This document shows, in pieces, positions 1,840-12,822 of a stretch of DNA of 64,000 nt. Each line of letters begins with the position of its first letter. The stretch's first letter is position 1. Origin of the DNA: an uncultured cyanobacterium (GTDB taxonomy: Bacteria > Cyanobacteriota > Cyanobacteriia > PCC-6307 > Cyanobiaceae); assembly GCA_903871775.1 (NCBI GenBank), contig CAIQIA010000016.1, forward strand, positions 1-64,000, in the 5' to 3' direction. The position numbers and the translations under genes were made by a program. Under the pieces are notes generated by a model. That model did no database searches. It was not told the DNA's origin and worked only from the letters and a program-made list of their open reading frames with translations.

Positions 1840-2370
1840 TCAGGCGGGCACCTTCGTCTCGGACAGCTGCTGCTTGAGGGACTCGGAGTTGACCCCCGAG
1901 GCCCTCTGCAGGGCCACCTTGCCCGTGCGGGCGATCTCAAGGATGCCGAAGGGTCGCAGCAGCTGCTCGAGGGCCACGAGCTTGCCGGGGTCACCGACCA
2001 CCTCAAGGGTAAGGGCCGTGTCGGCGACATCGACCACCTTGGCGCGGAACACCTGCACCAGGTCGAACACGGCGCCACGGCTGGTGGCATCGGCCTGAAC
2101 CTTGACCAGCATCAGCTCCCGCTCGACGGCGGGGATCACCGTCAGGTCGATCACCTCGAGCACGTTGACCAGCTTCAGCAGCTGACGGGTCATCTGCTCG
2201 AGGATCCGGTCATCGCCGGCGACGACCATCGTCAGCCGCGAGATGCCGGCCTGTTCGGTGGGACCCACGGCCAGGCTCTCGATGTTGTACCCCCGGCGGG
2301 CGAACAGCCCCGAGATGCGGCTGAGCGCACCGGATTGATCCTCCACCAGCACCGACAGGGTGTGCTTCAT
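1840..2370 (-). CDS. ilvH: Acetolactate synthase small (regulatory) subunit
   Basis: The product (176 residues from the ATG at 2370) begins [20 protein letters not shown], the typical start of IlvH, followed by the conserved [14 protein letters not shown] stretch of the N-terminal ACT domain and a C-terminal ALS_ss domain. It is the regulatory partner of the catalytic IlvB subunit in branched-chain amino acid synthesis and mediates valine feedback inhibition. An upstream in-frame ATG at 2385 would add five residues (MVDPL), but the family start favours 2370. It converges on the cyclophilin gene with only 12 nt between stops. The catalytic subunit is not in this window. Confidence 0.95.
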
Positions 2371-2416
2371 CAGCGGGTCCACCATTCCCCCAAGGGGCCT
2401 GGGCTCAACCTAGACG

Positions 2417-3370
2417 TCAGGGGGTGGACGGCCGCAACCAGGCGAGCAGGGCGGCATTGAACGCGGCCGGATCTTCGTCGTGGGGGCAGTGACCCACCGC
2501 ATCGAGCCAGTGCAGCCGGCAGAGGTGCCCGGGGGCCCGCTGCAGCACCCGTCGGGCCACCGCCGGCGGCACCAGCCGGTCGCGGGCGCCCCAGAGCAGC
2601 AGCAGCGGTCGCTCGAGGCGGCTCAGCAGCGCCGGCGCAGTGGCGGCCCTGGGTCGCAGCCCCATGCCCCGCACCATGCCCGCCAGGGAACGGGCCGCGG
2701 TGGGGCGGGCGGCCGGCCGGGCCACCAGCCGCAGCAGGTCATGGTCGATGCGTTCGAGCCGGTAGTAGGCCGATGCCAGCCCCAGCCGCAACAACAGCGG
2801 CTGGCGCAGGAGCCCGATGAGCGCCGGCAGGGGCAGCCGCAGCAGGGCCTGGCCGGCGAGCACGAGCCGGCGGTGCCAGCGCCGTTTCCAGGGGGCACGG
2901 CGGCGGGGCAGGGGGGCCAGCAGGGCGGGATCGGGCAGGGGGGCAGCCACCACCGCCCGCACCAGCTCAGGACGGAACACCGCCGTGGTGAGGGAGACGA
3001 GCCCACCGATCGAATTGCCCACCAGGACGGCGGGGGCCTGGACGACCTCCTGCAGGAAGTGCTGCAGCTGCCGGCTCCAGAGGCGGTTGTCGAGGGCGAT
3101 GCCGGGTTGATCGGAGCGGCCGAAGCCCAGCAGATCCAGGGCGAAGACCTGGTAACCGGCCTCGGCCAGGCCGGCCACATTGGCCCGCCAGTGGCCGCTG
3201 CAGGCCCCGAAGCCGTGCAGCAGCACCAGCGGCTCGCCGTCGCGGGGTCCGTAGCGGCGCCAGTGGCAGTGCCAGCCCGCAAACTGGTGAACGCCATGTT
3301 CCCCCCAGTCGCTGCCGGAACCGGCGACGGGGGGATCCCAGGTGCCCGGGGGAGAGTCGATCGTGTCCAC
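2417..3370 (-). CDS. Alpha/beta-hydrolase fold protein
   Basis: This 317-residue protein has the full alpha/beta-hydrolase layout: an oxyanion HGFG motif at 52-55, a nucleophile elbow GNSIGG with Ser120, an acidic residue in WGARDRLVP (Asp264) and a catalytic His in VGHCPHDEDP (His294). No signal peptide is apparent, so it is likely cytoplasmic. Related cyanobacterial proteins are annotated only as hydrolases or haloperoxidase-like, and the substrate cannot be read from sequence. The start is divergent from, and overlaps by 29 nt, the annotated trm1 start. That overlap shrinks if trm1 uses the GTG at 3363. Confidence 0.85.
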   Translation of the reverse strand: MDTIDSPPGTWDPPVAGSGSDWGEHGVHQFAGWHCHWRRYGPRDGEPLVLLHGFGACSGHWRANVAGLAEAGYQVFALDLLGFGRSDQPGIALDNRLWSRQLQHFLQEVVQAPAVLVGNSIGGLVSLTTAVFRPELVRAVVAAPLPDPALLAPLPRRRAPWKRRWHRRLVLAGQALLRLPLPALIGLLRQPLLLRLGLASAYYRLERIDHDLLRLVARPAARPTAARSLAGMVRGMGLRPRAATAPALLSRLERPLLLLWGARDRLVPPAVARRVLQRAPGHLCRLHWLDAVGHCPHDEDPAAFNAALLAWLRPSTP

Positions 3371-5747: not shown

Positions 5748-6362
5748 ATGGCATCCACGTCCCCCGAGCGGTCAGGTCAGGTCCCGGGCGATGCTGGCGA
5801 GATGCCGGATGCCGCGGCCCCGAACCCCGGCAGGGATGAGAGCATTCAGGTGAATCGCCTGGTCGAGCAGCTCATCAGCTCGATGGATGAGCTCAGGGAC
5901 GGGGCGCATCCGCTGCTCAACCGCAACGCCCTGCAGCATCTGGTGGAGCGCTGCCAGTCGCTGCTGGTGGGCTCGTCGCTGGCGGCCCTCACCACCCTGG
6001 GGGGCATCGGAGCCGGCGCTTTCGAGACCGATCGGATGAAGGAACTGCGGGTGGGGCCCCTCACCCTCGACCCGCGCAGCCTGGACGTCACCGTCCACGA
6101 CCGACCCCTGAACCTGACCCGCAAGGAATACGACCTGCTGCGTTTTCTGCTCAGTCACCGGGGCGAGGCCCTGGCCCGCGACCGCATCCTCGAGCAGGTG
6201 TGGGACCGGGACCATCTGGGCAAGGAGAACCTGCTGGATGTGTACATCCGATCCCTGCGCAGCAAGCTGCGTCCCCTGGGCGGCGACGGCATGATCCAGA
6301 CCCTGCGCGGCACCGGTTACATCGTTCGCGACTGGCCGGAACCGGAGAGCCCCGGAGCCTGA
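5748..6362 (+). CDS. OmpR-type winged-helix DNA-binding protein without receiver (paralogue 1)
   Basis: The 204-residue product has a C-terminal OmpR/PhoB-type winged-helix domain (about residues 110-197): LTRKEYDLLRFLLSH, the DNA-recognition region and the wing ending RGTGYIV. The N-terminal half has no phospho-acceptor receiver domain. Instead it has a short helical region (HPLLNRNALQHLVERC) also visible in the next two genes. It is the first of three tandem paralogues, so probably a transcription factor of unknown regulon. ATG 5748 was preferred over an upstream TTG at 5718. The signal it responds to cannot be inferred from the protein. Confidence 0.8.
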   Translation: MASTSPERSGQVPGDAGEMPDAAAPNPGRDESIQVNRLVEQLISSMDELRDGAHPLLNRNALQHLVERCQSLLVGSSLAALTTLGGIGAGAFETDRMKELRVGPLTLDPRSLDVTVHDRPLNLTRKEYDLLRFLLSHRGEALARDRILEQVWDRDHLGKENLLDVYIRSLRSKLRPLGGDGMIQTLRGTGYIVRDWPEPESPGA

Positions 6363-6412
6363 GACCCAACCCCCAAGACTTAAGCCAGTACGCACTCAGT
6401 GTCCACAAAGAT

Positions 6413-6435
6413 GACTCTTGCAACTTCTGCATAAG
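6413..6435. promoter_or_regulatory. Palindromic operator-like motif, copy A
   Basis: The sequence GACTCTTGCAACTTCTGCATAAG contains TTGCA and TGCATAAG as near inverted repeats around the 5-nt spacer ACTTC. A close copy lies before the third paralogue at 7035-7054. The conservation and dyad symmetry fit an operator, possibly bound by one of the winged-helix proteins encoded on either side. Binding is inferred. Confidence 0.45.
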
Positions 6436-6503
6436 CGGCTTTGAGGGATTGTCCTCAGGCCCTGCGACAACGACAATGGGTGCAACTTGACCGAGGGTGC
6501 CGC

Positions 6504-7115
6504 GTGGACACCAGCGAGCGACCTGGCGATGCGATGCGAGCCGTTCTCTCCATCAACCGGCAGACCGAACAGCTGGCGATGGCAATTGATGCCATCAAGG
6601 GTCAATGTGATCCGTTGCTGAATCTCTCGGCCCTTGAACTGCTGATCTTCAGAATCCGTCAACTGCTGGGGCGCCCTCTTGCCACCAAGGCGAATCTACC
6701 GGCCCGGCTGGAGGCAGGCCCCCTGGTGATCGACCTGCGCAGCAATGATGTCACCGTTGCTGGACGACGGATCGACCTGTCGCGGCGGGAGCATGATCTG
6801 CTGTGCTTTCTGATGCGCCATCCCGAAGAAGCCCTGTCGCGCGAGCAGATTCTGCTGGCGGTCTGGGGAGAGGCACACCGGGGGAAAGACAACCTGCTTG
6901 ACGTCTACATCGCCTACGTGCGCGCGAAGCTCAGGCCCCATGGGGCCGAAGGCATGATCGAGACCCTGCGGGGAACGGGTTACATCCTGCGGGCTCCCCA
7001 AAAAAGGGGGGAGGGAACGAGTGAGACTCGGCAAGACTATGCAAGTTCTGCATACCCGCCAGCTGAAACTCATTCTGCGGCAATCTTGTGCCAAGGTGCA
7101 ATCAGGTGCCTCTGA
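6504..7115 (+). CDS. OmpR-type winged-helix DNA-binding protein without receiver (paralogue 2)
   Basis: This protein of about 203 residues resembles its neighbours, with an N-terminal helical region (CDPLLNLSALELLIF) and a C-terminal OmpR-type winged helix ending RGTGYIL. There is no receiver domain. GTG 6504 is chosen because the upstream sequence aligns with that before the GTG start of paralogue 3; a TTG at 6441 is also in frame but would put coding sequence across the conserved leader. After the wing it carries an extra tail of about 37 residues absent from both paralogues. An A6G6 tract at 7000-7011 marks the point where one frame change would restore an early stop at 7022-7024. Confidence 0.75.
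   Translation: MDTSERPGDAMRAVLSINRQTEQLAMAIDAIKGQCDPLLNLSALELLIFRIRQLLGRPLATKANLPARLEAGPLVIDLRSNDVTVAGRRIDLSRREHDLLCFLMRHPEEALSREQILLAVWGEAHRGKDNLLDVYIAYVRAKLRPHGAEGMIETLRGTGYILRAPQKRGEGTSETRQDYASSAYPPAETHSAAILCQGAIRCL
7000..7011 (+). other. A6-G6 homopolymer tract at the end of winged-helix paralogue 2
   Basis: Six A are followed by six G just after the winged-helix domain. In the annotated frame, reading continues for about 37 further codons through the motif-B region. In the -1 frame it reaches TGA at 7022-7024, in a TGAGAC context identical to the stop context of paralogue 1. The tract is a candidate site for mutation, transcriptional slippage or ribosomal frameshifting, or for a sequencing error. 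Confidence 0.5.
7035..7054. promoter_or_regulatory. Palindromic operator-like motif, copy B
   Basis: TATGCA and TGCATA form a perfect inverted repeat around the spacer AGTTC, within GACTATGCAAGTTCTGCATA. It matches copy A at 6413-6435 and lies 67 nt before the GTG of paralogue 3. Downstream of both copies the sequence also shares TGCGRCAA and GGTGCAA blocks, so the two leaders are homologous. Confidence 0.5.
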
Positions 7116-7121
7116 CTAACA

Positions 7122-7637
7122 GTGGTTGAGACGGGCGGGGCACCGACTGATCAGCGACCCCTGGACCAGACGTTTCACCCCATCCAGGCGCTCATCGATC
7201 AGTTGCTGAACGCCCTCCAAGAGCTGCCACCGAACGATGTCGTCAACCTTGACCGCACCCGTTTGCGCCAGCTCGTGACCCTGCTGCGCACCCAGGCCAG
7301 CACGGTCGAACTGCTCACCATCGGCTGTGTCCGCCTCGATGGTGAAACCCGCGAAGTGGTGGTGGCCGACCGGCGGGAGTCGCTCACCCGTCGCGAATTC
7401 GACCTGCTGCATGCGCTGATGCGGCACCCCGGTGAAACCCTCAGCCGCGAACAGATCCTCGGCTGGGTGTGGGGCGATGCCCGCAGGGCCAGCGGCAACC
7501 TGGTCGATGTCTACATCCGTTATCTGCGCAACAAGCTGCGGCCCCTGGGGGTGGCCACCTGCCTCGAGACCATCCGGGGGGTGGGTTACCAGTTTCAGCC
7601 CCTGGAAGCGCCCAGGGTTCCACCGGCCCGTCGATAA
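7122..7637 (+). CDS. OmpR-type winged-helix DNA-binding protein without receiver (paralogue 3)
   Basis: The 171-residue product is the shortest of the trio. It has the related N-terminal region (VVNLDRTRLRQLVTLLR) and a C-terminal winged helix with LTRREFDLLHALMRH, the VDVYIRYLRNKLRP recognition segment and a wing ending RGVGYQF. It lacks a receiver domain. The start is GTG 7122; no ATG lies closer in frame. It is followed after 118 nt by the ndhF4 operon on the same strand, so it could regulate CO2 uptake, but only position suggests this. Confidence 0.8.
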   Translation: MVETGGAPTDQRPLDQTFHPIQALIDQLLNALQELPPNDVVNLDRTRLRQLVTLLRTQASTVELLTIGCVRLDGETREVVVADRRESLTRREFDLLHALMRHPGETLSREQILGWVWGDARRASGNLVDVYIRYLRNKLRPLGVATCLETIRGVGYQFQPLEAPRVPPARR

Positions 7638-7755
7638 GCGCCGCTTCTGGCGGTGATCGGCCATTCCAACGGCTGCGGGGCCGCAACTCCCCCGTGGGCA
7701 TCCATAAACTTCCGCGACATGGTTCCCACACCGGAGCCGCCCAACGACCCTTGCC

Positions 7756-9654
7756 ATGACCGCCTTTCTGCTCCAGACGGCCTGGCTGGTGCCGCTGTAC
7801 CCCCTTGCAGCCGCCCTGCTCTCCCTGCTCTGGTCACCAGGGCTCATCTCCCGCACCGGCCCACGCCCCTGCGGCTACCTCAACCTTTCGATGGTGACGG
7901 TGGCCTTCGTGCACAGCACCCTGGCCCTGATGGCGCTGCACGCCAATGCCAGCGCCGGCGAGGGAATGCTCTACGAGCCCGTCCGCTTTGGCTGGACCTG
8001 GCTGCACACCGCCGGGCTGAACATCGGCTTCGAAGGGGTGATCACCGAGCCTGCCCTGATCGCGATGACCGTCATCACAGGCCTGCACGTGCTGGTGCAG
8101 ATCTACAGCATCGGTTACCTCGAAATGGACTGGGGCTGGCCGCGCTTCTTCGGCTCCCTGAGTTTCTTTGAATCCGGCCTGTGCGCCCTGGTGCTCACCG
8201 ATTCGCTGTTCTTCAGCTACGTGATTCTTGAGCTGCTCACCCTCGGCACTTATCTGATCGTGGGCACCTGGTACAACCAGCCGCTGGTGGTCAAGGGGGC
8301 CCGCGACGCCTTTCTCACCAAGCGCATCGGTGACCTGGTGCTGCTGGCCGGCGTGATCGCCCTGCTGCCCCTCACCGGCACCTGGAACTTCCATGGCCTG
8401 GCCGCCTGGGCCGCCGACCATGCCGCCGATCCCGCCCTGCCCCGGTGGCTTCCCTGGATCCTGCTGGCCCTGGTGGCCGGACCCATGGGCAAATGCGCCC
8501 AGATTCCCCTGCACCTCTGGCTTGACGAAGCCATGGAGAGTCCGCTGCCCTCCACGGTGCTGCGCAACTCGGTGGTGGTGGTGGGCGGCGCCTGGGTGCT
8601 GCTGCGGCTGCAGCCGCTGCTGAGTCTCTGCCCTCTGGTGGGCTCGGTGCTGGTTGTCATCGGCGGCACCACCGCCGTGGTCGGGGCGCTCATCGCCCTG
8701 GCCCAGATCGACGTCAAGCGGGCCCTGTCGTTTCTGGTGAGCAGCTGGCTGGGTCTGCTCTTTCTGGCGGTGGGCCTGGGGGACACGGTGGTGGCCGATC
8801 ACCTGCTGCTGGTGTACCCCCTGCCGATGGCGGTGATGCTGATGGCGGTCGGGGCGATCATCGTCACCAACGTCACCCAGGACCTGACCCAGCTGGGGGG
8901 GCTCTGGAGCCGCCGCCCGCTGATGGGCCTGGCCTTCCTGTCCGGGGCTGCCGGCCTGATGGCCCTGCCGCCCTTCGGTGGCTTCGCCGCCCAGCGGGAA
9001 CTGCTGGCCCTGGCCGCCGCCAGTGGTCGCCCGCTGCTGCTGGGGGGCCTGGTGCTGCTCACCAATGCCCTGCTGAGTGCCGGTCTGGTGCGCATCTTCG
9101 GCTCGATCTGGGCCGGCCGCCCCACCACCTTCACCGCCCGGTCGCCGGAGGTGCTCTGGCTCATGGCCCTGCCCACCCTGCTGCTGATGGGCCTCGTGCT
9201 GCACCTGCCCCAGCTGCTGGTGCGCAACGGCATCGTGGGGCTCACCCCCATTCCCGGCTGGGGCCCCCAGGCCCTGCCGCTGCTGCTGTCCACCCTGGTG
9301 GGCGGCGGTCTCTCGGCCCTGTTCTATCTGCGGCCCCATCCCCTGGCGCACCTGCCGGCGACCCTGGGGGGCCTGCAGGACTGGCTGGCCCATGACCTGC
9401 AGACCGAACGCTTCTATCACCGCACGGTGGTGCGCCTGGTGGTGGGCCTCTCCCGGCTCAGCGCCTGGACCGACGAACGGCTCGTGGATGGCTTCAGCGG
9501 CGCCAGCGGTGCAGCGGCGATGGCCGGTGCCCGGCGCCTCAGCCTCACCACCTCGGGGCGTTCACAGGTCTATGCCCTCACCCTGCTGCTCGGTGTCCTG
9601 GCCATGGCGGCCTGGATGCTCAACGGTTCCCTGCCCCTGCCGCTGTTCCGCTGA
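7756..9654 (+). CDS. ndhF4: NDH-1 CO2-uptake subunit NdhF4
   Basis: The 632-residue, very hydrophobic protein belongs to the NuoL/NdhF antiporter-like family, with the conserved TKRIGDLVLLAGV and PLPSTVLRNS-type stretches. Order with ndhD4 and cupB identifies it as the NdhF4 form of the constitutive low-affinity CO2-uptake complex (NDH-1MS', also called NDH-1-4). That complex uses electrons from photosystem I to drive hydration of CO2 to bicarbonate at the thylakoid membrane. The last A of its TGA is the first base of the ndhD4 ATG. Compared with NuoL-type subunits the C-terminal extension is modest. Confidence 0.93.
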   Translation: MTAFLLQTAWLVPLYPLAAALLSLLWSPGLISRTGPRPCGYLNLSMVTVAFVHSTLALMALHANASAGEGMLYEPVRFGWTWLHTAGLNIGFEGVITEPALIAMTVITGLHVLVQIYSIGYLEMDWGWPRFFGSLSFFESGLCALVLTDSLFFSYVILELLTLGTYLIVGTWYNQPLVVKGARDAFLTKRIGDLVLLAGVIALLPLTGTWNFHGLAAWAADHAADPALPRWLPWILLALVAGPMGKCAQIPLHLWLDEAMESPLPSTVLRNSVVVVGGAWVLLRLQPLLSLCPLVGSVLVVIGGTTAVVGALIALAQIDVKRALSFLVSSWLGLLFLAVGLGDTVVADHLLLVYPLPMAVMLMAVGAIIVTNVTQDLTQLGGLWSRRPLMGLAFLSGAAGLMALPPFGGFAAQRELLALAAASGRPLLLGGLVLLTNALLSAGLVRIFGSIWAGRPTTFTARSPEVLWLMALPTLLLMGLVLHLPQLLVRNGIVGLTPIPGWGPQALPLLLSTLVGGGLSALFYLRPHPLAHLPATLGGLQDWLAHDLQTERFYHRTVVRLVVGLSRLSAWTDERLVDGFSGASGAAAMAGARRLSLTTSGRSQVYALTLLLGVLAMAAWMLNGSLPLPLFR

Positions 9655-11096
9655 TGTCACCGCTTCTGCTGCTGCTGCCGGGGCTGCCCCTGGTGGCCGC
9701 CCTCACCCTGCCCCTGCTTCCCCAGAGCCGCTGCCGCGCCGCCATTGCCCTCGGCGCAGCGGCCGCCGGCCTGCAGCTGCTGGCCACCCTGCTGGCCTGG
9801 CGCCTGGCACCGGCTGACCTGAACCTGCCCTGGCTGCCGTCCCTGGGGCTGCAGCTGCAGCTGGGCCTGGATGGTCTCTCCCTGCCCCTCGCCCTGCTGG
9901 CCGCCCTGATCAGCACCCTGGCGATCCTGGCCACACCGGAGGACCAGAACCGGTTGCGGCTGTTCGTGCCCCTGCTGCTGGCCTGCGACGGCGGGGTGAC
10001 CACCGCCTTCATGGCCCGCAATGCCCTGCTGTTCGTGCTGGCGTTCGAGCTGGTGCTGATCCCCACCACACTGCTGATCGCCATCTGGGGCGGCCAGCGC
10101 CGGGCCGGTGCCGCGGTGCGCTACCTCATCTATGGAGCCCTGTCGGGCCTGACCCTGCTGGCGGCGATACTGGCCCTGGGCTGGGCCGGTGGCACCGCCG
10201 CCTTCGACTTCGACAGCCTGGCGGCCCTTGACCTGAGCCCCGCCGGCCAGCGCTGGATCCTCGCCCTGCTGCTGCTGGCCTTCGGCCTGAAGCTGCCGAT
10301 CGTTCCCCTGCACGGCTGGCAGCCCCTCACCTACAGCCAGGCCCCCACACCGGTGGTGATGCTGCTGGCGGGCACAATCTCGAAGCTCGGCGCCTACGGG
10401 CTGCTGCGCTTCGGGGTGGCGATGCTGCCCGAGGCCTGGGCCGCCTGGTCCCCCTGGATCGCCGCCCTCGGGGCCTTCAGTGCCGTCTACGGCGCGCTCA
10501 ACGCCATCGCCCAGACCGATCTGCGGCGGCTGATGGCCTACAGCTCCCTCGGTCACATGGGTCTGCTGGTGCTCGCCCTGGCGGCGGCCACCCCCCTCAG
10601 CCTCCAGGGCGCCGTGGCCCAGGTGCTGGCCCACGGGCTGATCGTCGCCCTGCTCTTCGCCTGCGCCGGCCTGATCGAACGCAAGACCGGCACCACCGCC
10701 ATCGCCAAGCTGTCCGGACTGCTCAACCCCCTGCGGGGCCTTCCCTTCACCCTCGGACTGCTGCTGCTGGCCCTGATGGCCGCTGCCGGCATTCCCGGCC
10801 TGGCAGCCTTCCCGGCCGAACTGATGGTGTTTGAAGGCAGCTGGGTGCGCTTCCCGGTGGCCACCCTGATCTCTCTTGGGGCCTCGGGCCTGACGGCCGT
10901 GTACGCCGTGCGCCTGTTCAACCGCGTGGGCTTCGGCCGTCTCGACAACGCCCGCGCCCACTGGCCGGTCACGAGCTGGTCAGAACGACTGCCGGCCCTG
11001 ACCCTTGCACTGCTGGTGATCGGCGTGGGCCTCTGGCCCACGGCCCTCACCGGCTGGAGCGAAGCCTTCACCGCCCACATCGCCCTGCCGTCATGA
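9654..11096 (+). CDS. ndhD4: NDH-1 CO2-uptake subunit NdhD4
   Basis: This 480-residue membrane protein of the NuoM/NdhD family has about 13-14 hydrophobic segments and the conserved motifs LKLPIVPLHGWQP and RRLMAYSSLGHMG. Paired with NdhF4 and CupB it forms the specialised distal membrane arm of the CO2-hydrating NDH-1 complex. Its start overlaps the ndhF4 stop by 1 nt and its own stop overlaps the cupB start by 4 nt, so the three are translationally coupled. Assignment to the D4 type rests on operon context more than on sequence detail. Confidence 0.93.
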   Translation: MSPLLLLLPGLPLVAALTLPLLPQSRCRAAIALGAAAAGLQLLATLLAWRLAPADLNLPWLPSLGLQLQLGLDGLSLPLALLAALISTLAILATPEDQNRLRLFVPLLLACDGGVTTAFMARNALLFVLAFELVLIPTTLLIAIWGGQRRAGAAVRYLIYGALSGLTLLAAILALGWAGGTAAFDFDSLAALDLSPAGQRWILALLLLAFGLKLPIVPLHGWQPLTYSQAPTPVVMLLAGTISKLGAYGLLRFGVAMLPEAWAAWSPWIAALGAFSAVYGALNAIAQTDLRRLMAYSSLGHMGLLVLALAAATPLSLQGAVAQVLAHGLIVALLFACAGLIERKTGTTAIAKLSGLLNPLRGLPFTLGLLLLALMAAAGIPGLAAFPAELMVFEGSWVRFPVATLISLGASGLTAVYAVRLFNRVGFGRLDNARAHWPVTSWSERLPALTLALLVIGVGLWPTALTGWSEAFTAHIALPS

Positions 11097-12397
11097 CCGC
11101 CACCACCAGCCCCCAGTCCACTGCGGCGGCGCCCCTGCCCCCATCGCAGCACCGCTGGGCCGACGTCATCCATCGGCTCGAGGCCGGCGGTTCGATGCTG
11201 CCGGACACCCCCGAGAACCTGATGCAGATCATCGGCATCTACAAGGCCTACGCCGTGCCGATGGACTTCTACTGGCGTGATCTGCTCTACATCGCCGAGC
11301 GGGTGTTTCTCAACCCACTGCCGGCCTTCAAATACTTCATCAGCCAGGAGTACCTCGACCGCCCCAACAGCTACGCCGGCGACCGGTCACCCCTGAGAAT
11401 CTGGCGTGGCGGTGAGAAGGCCCATCCGGAACTGCTGGCGTTCATGGAACGGGGCGAAACCACGGCGATGCCGAAGCTGCTGCACCACCTGTGGCACGAC
11501 CGCATCAACATGGAGTTCGCGGAAGCCTGCATGCAGGCGATGCTCTGGCACCAGGGCATGGGCGGACGCTTCAACGACTACCTGGTCAGCGACACCTACC
11601 GGGCCAATGCCGACAAGGCCATCCGCGCCTACTTCCGCGGCAACCCCGTGATGCTGGGCCTCTACCGGCTGTTTCCGGAGATGTTCCTCGAGCAGGTGCG
11701 TCAGCTCAGCTACACGGCCAACCTCGGACTCTTCTGGGAGGTGATGGCGCCCGTCTTCTTTGAGATGAGCGACATCTACGACGAGGGTGGCTTCCAGGGG
11801 GTGCCCGATGCCATGGCTTTTCTGGTCAATGGCATCTTCGCCGTTGCCGGCCGCCCCATCTATCACCACGTCTACATCGACGGGGAATGCCACGAGATCA
11901 TTCCCAAGAGTGAGGGCTTCACCTGGCTGTACGAAGCGGCTCTGCCCTACGTCGAAGCCGTCTTCTATCGGACGGCACCCTTCCGGGGCACCAAGAGCTA
12001 CAACGCCCAGGCGGGGCAGGTGCCCGTCGACCAGGCCGATTTCCACTACGGCATCCTTTACGCCGATGTGTACCCCGTCGGTTCAGCCGGCATTCCGCCG
12101 ACGCTGCTGATGCAGGACATGCTGCACTTTCTGCCCCCCTACCTCCAGGATCTGTATCAGCAACACCGCCGCGGCAGCGACGACGAATTGATCCAGCTGG
12201 GCATCACCTTCCAGCGGTCGATGTACAACGTCACCTCGGCGGTGATTCAGGCCCTGCGGGCTGCCCTCTTCTATCCCCTCGACGATCCGGATCCGGAGCA
12301 CCGCCTGGCGAACCGGCGCTTCTTCGAGGCGCAGATGGACCGCTTCCTGCGACCCGAGGCGCGCCTGGGGGACATCCAGAGCCAGGACTACCGCTGA
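11093..12397 (+). CDS. cupB: CO2 hydration protein CupB (ChpX)
   Basis: The 434-residue soluble-looking protein matches the Cup/Chp family that exists only with cyanobacterial NDH-1 CO2-uptake complexes. Recognisable stretches include [29 protein letters not shown]-like sequence and the His-rich [18 protein letters not shown] segment. CupB sits on the cytoplasmic side of the membrane arm and is thought to act as a carbonic-anhydrase-like site with zinc. The 4-nt overlap with ndhD4 puts it in the same operon. The inducible CupA operon is not in this window. Confidence 0.93.
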
Positions 12398-12420: not shown

Positions 12421-12822
12421 ATGGCCTCGATCCTCGACACCGCCCGCAGCGCCGGCTGCTTCCAGACCCTGCTGGCCGCCGTCGAGGCGGCCGGTCTCAC
12501 CGCCGCCCTGGAGGGTCCGGGCCCGTTCACGGTCTTCGCCCCCGTGGATGACGCCTTTGCCGCCCTCCCCCCCGGCTGCGTGGACACCCTGGTGCAGAAC
12601 CCGCCCCAGCTGGCCCGCATCCTCAAGTACCACGTGCTGGCCGGCGCCCACCCCCGCGACCGCCTGGTGGCGCAGGACACCTGGGACAGCCTGGAGGGAG
12701 CCCCGGTGCCGATCCGGCGGGCCGACCCCTTCGAGGTCAAGAACGCGACCGTCATCAGCCCCGACGTCACCTGCGACAACGGCGTCGTGCACGTCATCGA
12801 CCGGGTGATCCTGCCGGGGTGA
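12421..12822 (+). CDS. FAS1 (fasciclin) domain protein, CupS-like
   Basis: The 133-residue protein is a single FAS1 domain with both signature blocks: [15 protein letters not shown] (about 36-50) and the C-terminal [11 protein letters not shown]. It has no signal peptide. It starts 23 nt after cupB, so it is likely in the same operon. In Synechocystis the FAS1-fold protein CupS is part of the other, inducible NDH-1 CO2-uptake complex (ndhF3-ndhD3-cupA-cupS). A FAS1 gene here therefore suggests a CupS-like subunit for the CupB complex, which is an inference. Its last 29 nt overlap the convergent peptidase gene. Confidence 0.85.

Follow-up and report, generated by a model that had tools for sequence, protein, structure and literature searches.

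Which function can be assigned to three short winged-helix genes that lie in front of a CO2-uptake operon, and is this operon their target? The question is raised by the window analysed here, a stretch of 64,000 nucleotides from an uncultured member of the Cyanobiaceae with a genome of 2.57 Mb, whose genus is represented by two genomes, the source genome and a sister genome (G032). The three ORFs (genes 1 to 3) are arranged in tandem on one strand (Table 1), are preceded by a gene encoding an NmrA-like NAD(P)-binding protein and, as described in an earlier note on this DNA, are situated directly upstream of the CO2-uptake operon; ndhF3-ndhD3-chpY-fasciclin begins 118 bp after gene 3.

Table 1. 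Genes and candidate sites discussed in the text; positions without a prefix are those of the window.
Feature	Position	Strand	Remarks
Gene 1, receiver-less OmpR/PhoB-type winged-helix protein, 204 aa	5748..6362	+	PF00486 at residues 119-192 only
Gene 2, receiver-less OmpR/PhoB-type winged-helix protein, 203 aa	6504..7115	+	PF00486 at residues 87-162
Gene 3, receiver-less OmpR/PhoB-type winged-helix protein, 171 aa	7122..7637	+	PF00486; orthologue in G032
Dyad CTTGCAACTTCTGCATA before gene 2, candidate LysR-type operator	6417..6433	+
Dyad TATGCAAGTTCTGCATA before gene 3, candidate LysR-type operator	7038..7054	+	Conserved in G032
ndhF3 cis element, GATAA-N6-CTT-N10-ATCGG	7633..7660	+	28-bp pattern in 33/50 ndhF3 upstream regions, eight of them inspected beforehand
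ndhF3, CO2-uptake NDH-1 complex subunit	7756..9654	+	TIGR01960, 688 bits
ndhD3-type NDH-1 subunit	9654..11096	+	PF00361
chpY/cupA CO2 hydration protein	11093..12397	+	PF10216, TIGR01964
Fasciclin-domain gene, cupS-like position	12421..12822	+	PF02469
LysR-type tandem pair, source genome	G000:C14:1246-2103 and 2207-3070	-
LysR-type family members	L160:1002-1970 and 2072-3001, L153:1090-1959, L147:1006-1881, L148:1020-1895	-
Nif11-domain genes, G105	L147:2750-3013, L148:3246-3509	+	Preceded by LysR-type operator
Orthologous dyads, both genomes of the genus	L112:3045-3061, L114:3910-3926		After cpcG, before DUF4912/Rho-N gene
Genes behind further dyads, secreted-looking or polysaccharide export	L149:2073-4001, L150:2095-3513, L113:3068-6001, L156:2348-2683	all +
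NblR-like regulator, receiver without acidic residues	L007:1483-2193 (G000:C17)	-	Conserved in G032 (L043)

In all three proteins Trans_reg_C (PF00486) was detected by Pfam with 82-84 bits (cut-off 26.2, E ~1e-23 each), and no Pfam match to a receiver domain was obtained, the residues in front of the winged helix being too few for one. By Pfam score and predicted fold they are OmpR/PhoB-type winged-helix proteins; they do not belong to the OmpR/PhoB response regulators, which possess a receiver with a phospho-acceptor aspartate. Two N-terminal helices were predicted by AlphaFold2 for gene 2 (residues 7-31 and 41-56, block pLDDT mostly 77-87) and for gene 3 (residues 20-33 and 45-59, moderate block pLDDT of ~60-71), followed in both cases by a canonical winged helix of high confidence (blocks >90). 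The top Foldseek match of gene 3 was the PhoB effector domain 1gxq (E 3.9e-10, rmsd 1.3). Pairwise identities among the three range from 37 to 50% with tblastn E-values of 1e-22 to 1e-32, and they fall into a single supported clade (see below). The earlier description of three paralogous OmpR-type winged-helix proteins with a short helical N-terminal region and without a phospho-acceptor domain is thus borne out. The starts of genes 1 and 2 are uncertain, with GTG at 5850 and ATG at 6534 as possible alternatives, respectively, and the last ~35 residues of gene 2 (after ~residue 166) are encoded across a cis element and show no conservation at the protein level.

The second N-terminal helix occupies the place of the last receiver helix in response regulators, and that of gene 2 resembles this helix: in a comparison with receiver beta5-alpha5, 95 of 3000 shuffles scored as high as gene 2 (P ~0.03), similarity of the other genes being not significant, and a profile comparison of the N-terminus with the receiver yielded E 0.026. 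This ungapped look-alike in gene 2 weakly suggests that the N-terminus of the trio might be a receiver relic. Judged from the anatomy, the helical hairpin most likely dimerises the proteins.

Considering their position, genes 1 to 3 could be local regulators of ndhF3-ndhD3-chpY to which low-CO2 control has passed in this genus. Adjacency to ndhF3 is kept in both genomes, as the sister contig begins inside the gene 2 orthologue and continues with the gene 3 orthologue and ndhF3. Furthermore, no CcmR/NdhR gene was found in the genus, and the sole standard LysR gene of the genome adjoins ndhF1, as RbcR does in Prochlorococcus. CmpR and cyAbrB2 are missing from the alpha-cyanobacteria as a group (PMC9477826). 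The known CO2-uptake regulators NdhR/CcmR and CmpR hold the role that the adjacency of the trio would suggest, but they are LysR-type proteins with an effector domain, whereas the trio represents a different fold class; the site of NdhR is ATAG-N8-CTAT (PMC13249358).

Against this assignment, no winged-helix gene was found upstream of ndhF3 within 1.5 kb at the 28 closest other loci (a few of them shortened by contig ends) or within ~3 kb at 20 further loci chosen to cover other genera. Conservation of the neighbourhood, which the earlier note had proposed to survey, is therefore confined to the genus, where the order gene 2, gene 3, ndhF3 recurs in the sole other genome; outside the genus all 48 other ndhF3 loci lack the trio, and the co-conservation with ndhF3 expected of an NdhR-like low-CO2 regulator was not observed. 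Moreover, ndhF3 is preceded by a 28-bp element with the usual form GAT(A/C)A-N6-CTT-N10-AT(N)GG, which was found through leader alignment. It occurs in 33 of the 50 ndhF3 loci, both genomes of the genus included, compared to a shuffle rate of 0.0002, and this count includes the eight leaders that were inspected before the pattern was chosen. In most loci the element is situated ~100-150 bp before ndhF3, in one 195 bp; in the window the gene 3 stop codon falls within its first five bases. It is shared by members across the Cyanobiaceae, with RbcR as an obvious candidate binder. The simplest reading of these leaders is that ndhF3 would retain a separate, ancestral control element without having to be a target of the trio. 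In addition, no TGCA dyad of the kind described below was seen in the ndhF3 leader. The link between the trio and CO2 uptake that the earlier note had implied found no support, given the 48 loci without the trio and the presence of the ndhF3 element in relatives lacking it; adjacency is all that connects the two, and control of CO2 uptake by the trio appears unlikely.

Which regulator, then, acts on the trio itself? Genes 2 and 3 are each preceded, ~85 bp before the start, by a dyad of the TATGCA-N5-TGCATA-like form; none was seen by eye before gene 1. The gene 3 dyad of the sister genome forms a perfect 8-bp inverted repeat (ACTATGCA-N5-TGCATAGT), and GAGACTCGGC-AGACTATGCA around it is conserved. 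Due to the fact that the reading frame of gene 2 over the conserved stretch differs between the genomes (GAG ACT CGG in the source window, AGA CTC GGC in the sister genome), it is the DNA and not the protein that is conserved. Four occurrences of the 16-mer WTGCANNWTYTGCATA were counted in the source genome, compared to 0.009-0.016 expected under Markov models, which were used since a backwards-read control is a poor null for this dyad, TGCA and ACGT differing in frequency. The third site of the source genome lies between cpcG and a DUF4912/Rho-N gene and is conserved in the sister genome; the fourth is found upstream of a HAD/FkbH-like gene transcribed divergently from a sulfotransferase-like gene. 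An additional site of the sister genome precedes a large surface protein gene. Scans for sigma-70 promoters and terminators gave nothing above chance.

The same dyad stands before LysR-type genes in other Cyanobiaceae. They belong to a divergent family whose substrate domain is recognisable, whereas its HTH has diverged and is hardly detected by Pfam. The family occurs in 51 of 201 Cyanobiaceae genomes, often as tandem pairs; several members are preceded by the operator TTTATGCA-N5-TGCATAAA. In the LysR-positive genomes 7 of 48 dyad sites are located 68-105 bp upstream of a LysR-type gene, a range set after the cases were seen, compared to 0.009 expected within 150 bp. The motif was present in 27 of the 51 LysR-positive genomes and in 32 of the 150 without the family (P 4e-5, uncorrected for relatedness and base composition, AT-rich genomes giving chance matches). 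For LysR-type sites a dyad containing T-N11-A is expected, and this was found for the dyad family at the promoters of LysR-type genes. A tandem pair of the family is encoded on contig C14 of the source genome, its genes carrying only partial dyad sites of their own. Based on the dyad before LysR-type genes, the co-occurrence of motif and family, and the two family genes on C14, the latter encode the best candidate, not proven, regulators of the dyads before genes 2 and 3.

Alternatively, the TGCA-N5-TGCA dyads could be autoregulatory sites bound by the trio instead of a LysR-type protein. They precede genes 2 and 3 and few other genes, and the sister genome contains three sites in all and no LysR-type family gene was found in its assembly, which is 76% complete. 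However, genomes devoid of the trio have this site as well, at a constant spacing upstream of LysR-type genes, and the T-N11-A that it contains is LysR-like, whereas OmpR-type proteins usually bind direct repeats. Autoregulation is thus regarded as quite improbable, and LysR-type control of genes 2 and 3 is preferred.

Outside the source genus, the LysR-type operator was also observed before Nif11-domain genes of genome G105; these are located on the strand opposite to the LysR-type gene and possess a second copy of the site, so that control of Nif11-type peptides is possible. Further dyads are located before genes encoding large secreted-looking proteins (C-type lectin, dockerin-like, nidogen-like) and before a polysaccharide export gene, which suggests a putative cell-surface regulon.

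With respect to descent, a maximum-likelihood tree of winged helices placed the trio and the orthologue of the sister genome in one clade (97/92), nested in an NblR-like group (90/85), and membership of the NblR-like clade is thereby indicated, long branches calling for caution. Gene 3 and its orthologue group together (100/99), separately from genes 1 and 2, hence the duplications predate the split of the two genomes. In a profile check of the kind that the earlier note had proposed, the trio exceeded the cut-off of no curated regulator family. The nearest NCBIfam entry is the NblR equivalog NF045914, whose winged helix was matched with 90-99 bits, well below the cut-off of 300. Among 400 Cyanobiaceae genomes (59 genera), profile searches recovered the trio family in two, both of the source genus; the match ranking next, from one further Cyanobiaceae genome, is a full-length NblR-like regulator. 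The family was not found elsewhere in 386 genomes across the phylum, where the single other match was a full-length NblR beside a NAD kinase gene. No description of the trio proteins was found in the open-access literature on receiver-less OmpR-type regulators or on Cyanobium ndhF3 regulators. The trio is a genuine set of NblR-type output domains that stand alone and are specific to the genus.

The source genome contains 14 winged-helix genes of this type. Each of the 11 outside the trio is situated in a frame that could accommodate a complete response regulator, and three of these 11 are NblR-like, one of them with a degenerate receiver (L007). With gene 2 as query, only distant response regulators were found in the genome contigs. 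In its recognition helix gene 3 (DVYIRYLRNKL) agrees with NblR-like regulators, whereas gene 1 (IRSLRSKL) and gene 2 (IAYVRAKL) differ at positions corresponding to DNA contacts of PhoB. Gene 3 may therefore share NblR-type sites, from which genes 1 and 2 may have drifted.

Between the two genomes, dN/dS of gene 3 is 0.33 overall, 0.30 for the N-terminus and 0.25 for the winged helix, compared to 0.06 for ndhF3; gene 3 is under purifying selection and evolves faster than ndhF3. That the trio consists of functionless response-regulator remnants heading for loss, as its fast evolution (67% amino acid identity for gene 3 versus 96% for ndhF3), the unconserved tail of gene 2 and the narrow distribution might indicate, is very improbable in view of these dN/dS values, the presence of three open frames, each with an intact winged helix, a triplication that preceded the separation of the two genomes and the conserved upstream dyads.

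The explanation that we favour, with about even confidence, is that the trio comprises dose-controlled, phosphorylation-independent, genus-specific NblR-type DNA-binding proteins, genes 2 and 3 being under LysR-type control. The trio would be derived from an NblR-like OmpR/PhoB response regulator after receiver loss, each protein combining a working winged helix with a short helical hairpin that replaces the receiver and would dimerise the proteins. As the trio lacks a phospho-acceptor, the usual switching by a histidine kinase is impossible, and activity is most likely set by the amount of protein made. Genes 2 and 3 would be controlled from their own upstream regions, in each of which a TGCA-N5-TGCA dyad would serve as operator of the divergent LysR-type family, for which the tandem pair on C14 would provide the candidate regulators. 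The trio proteins would bind to NblR-type sites, where they would either activate constitutively or compete with the full-length NblR-like regulators of the cell. It is tempting to extend this to a two-tier circuit, in which a divergent LysR-type regulator drives stand-alone NblR-type domains as kinase-independent stand-ins or competitors and a metabolite signal thus enters a response-regulator regulon without phosphorylation, but such a circuit is doubtful.

Compared to known systems, the trio shares fold and PF00486 with the PhoB/OmpR effector domains, but carries a short helical hairpin instead of a receiver. NblR possesses a winged helix of the same clade, but also a full receiver. Since NblR works without phosphorylation in Synechococcus elongatus (PMC12632262), receiver loss in the NblR-like clade is less surprising. 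Aspartate-less and pseudo-receiver regulators likewise have their output outside ordinary phosphotransfer, but keep the receiver fold (PMC4395418, PMC12632262), which is absent from the trio.

Of broader use are two by-products, the divergent LysR-type family with a defined candidate operator and the ndhF3 element found across the Cyanobiaceae, the latter bearing on the regulation of CO2 uptake in the absence of CmpR and cyAbrB2. Few free-standing OmpR-type output domains have been described; with three of them in tandem and a named candidate controller for two, the use that is made of such domains becomes testable.
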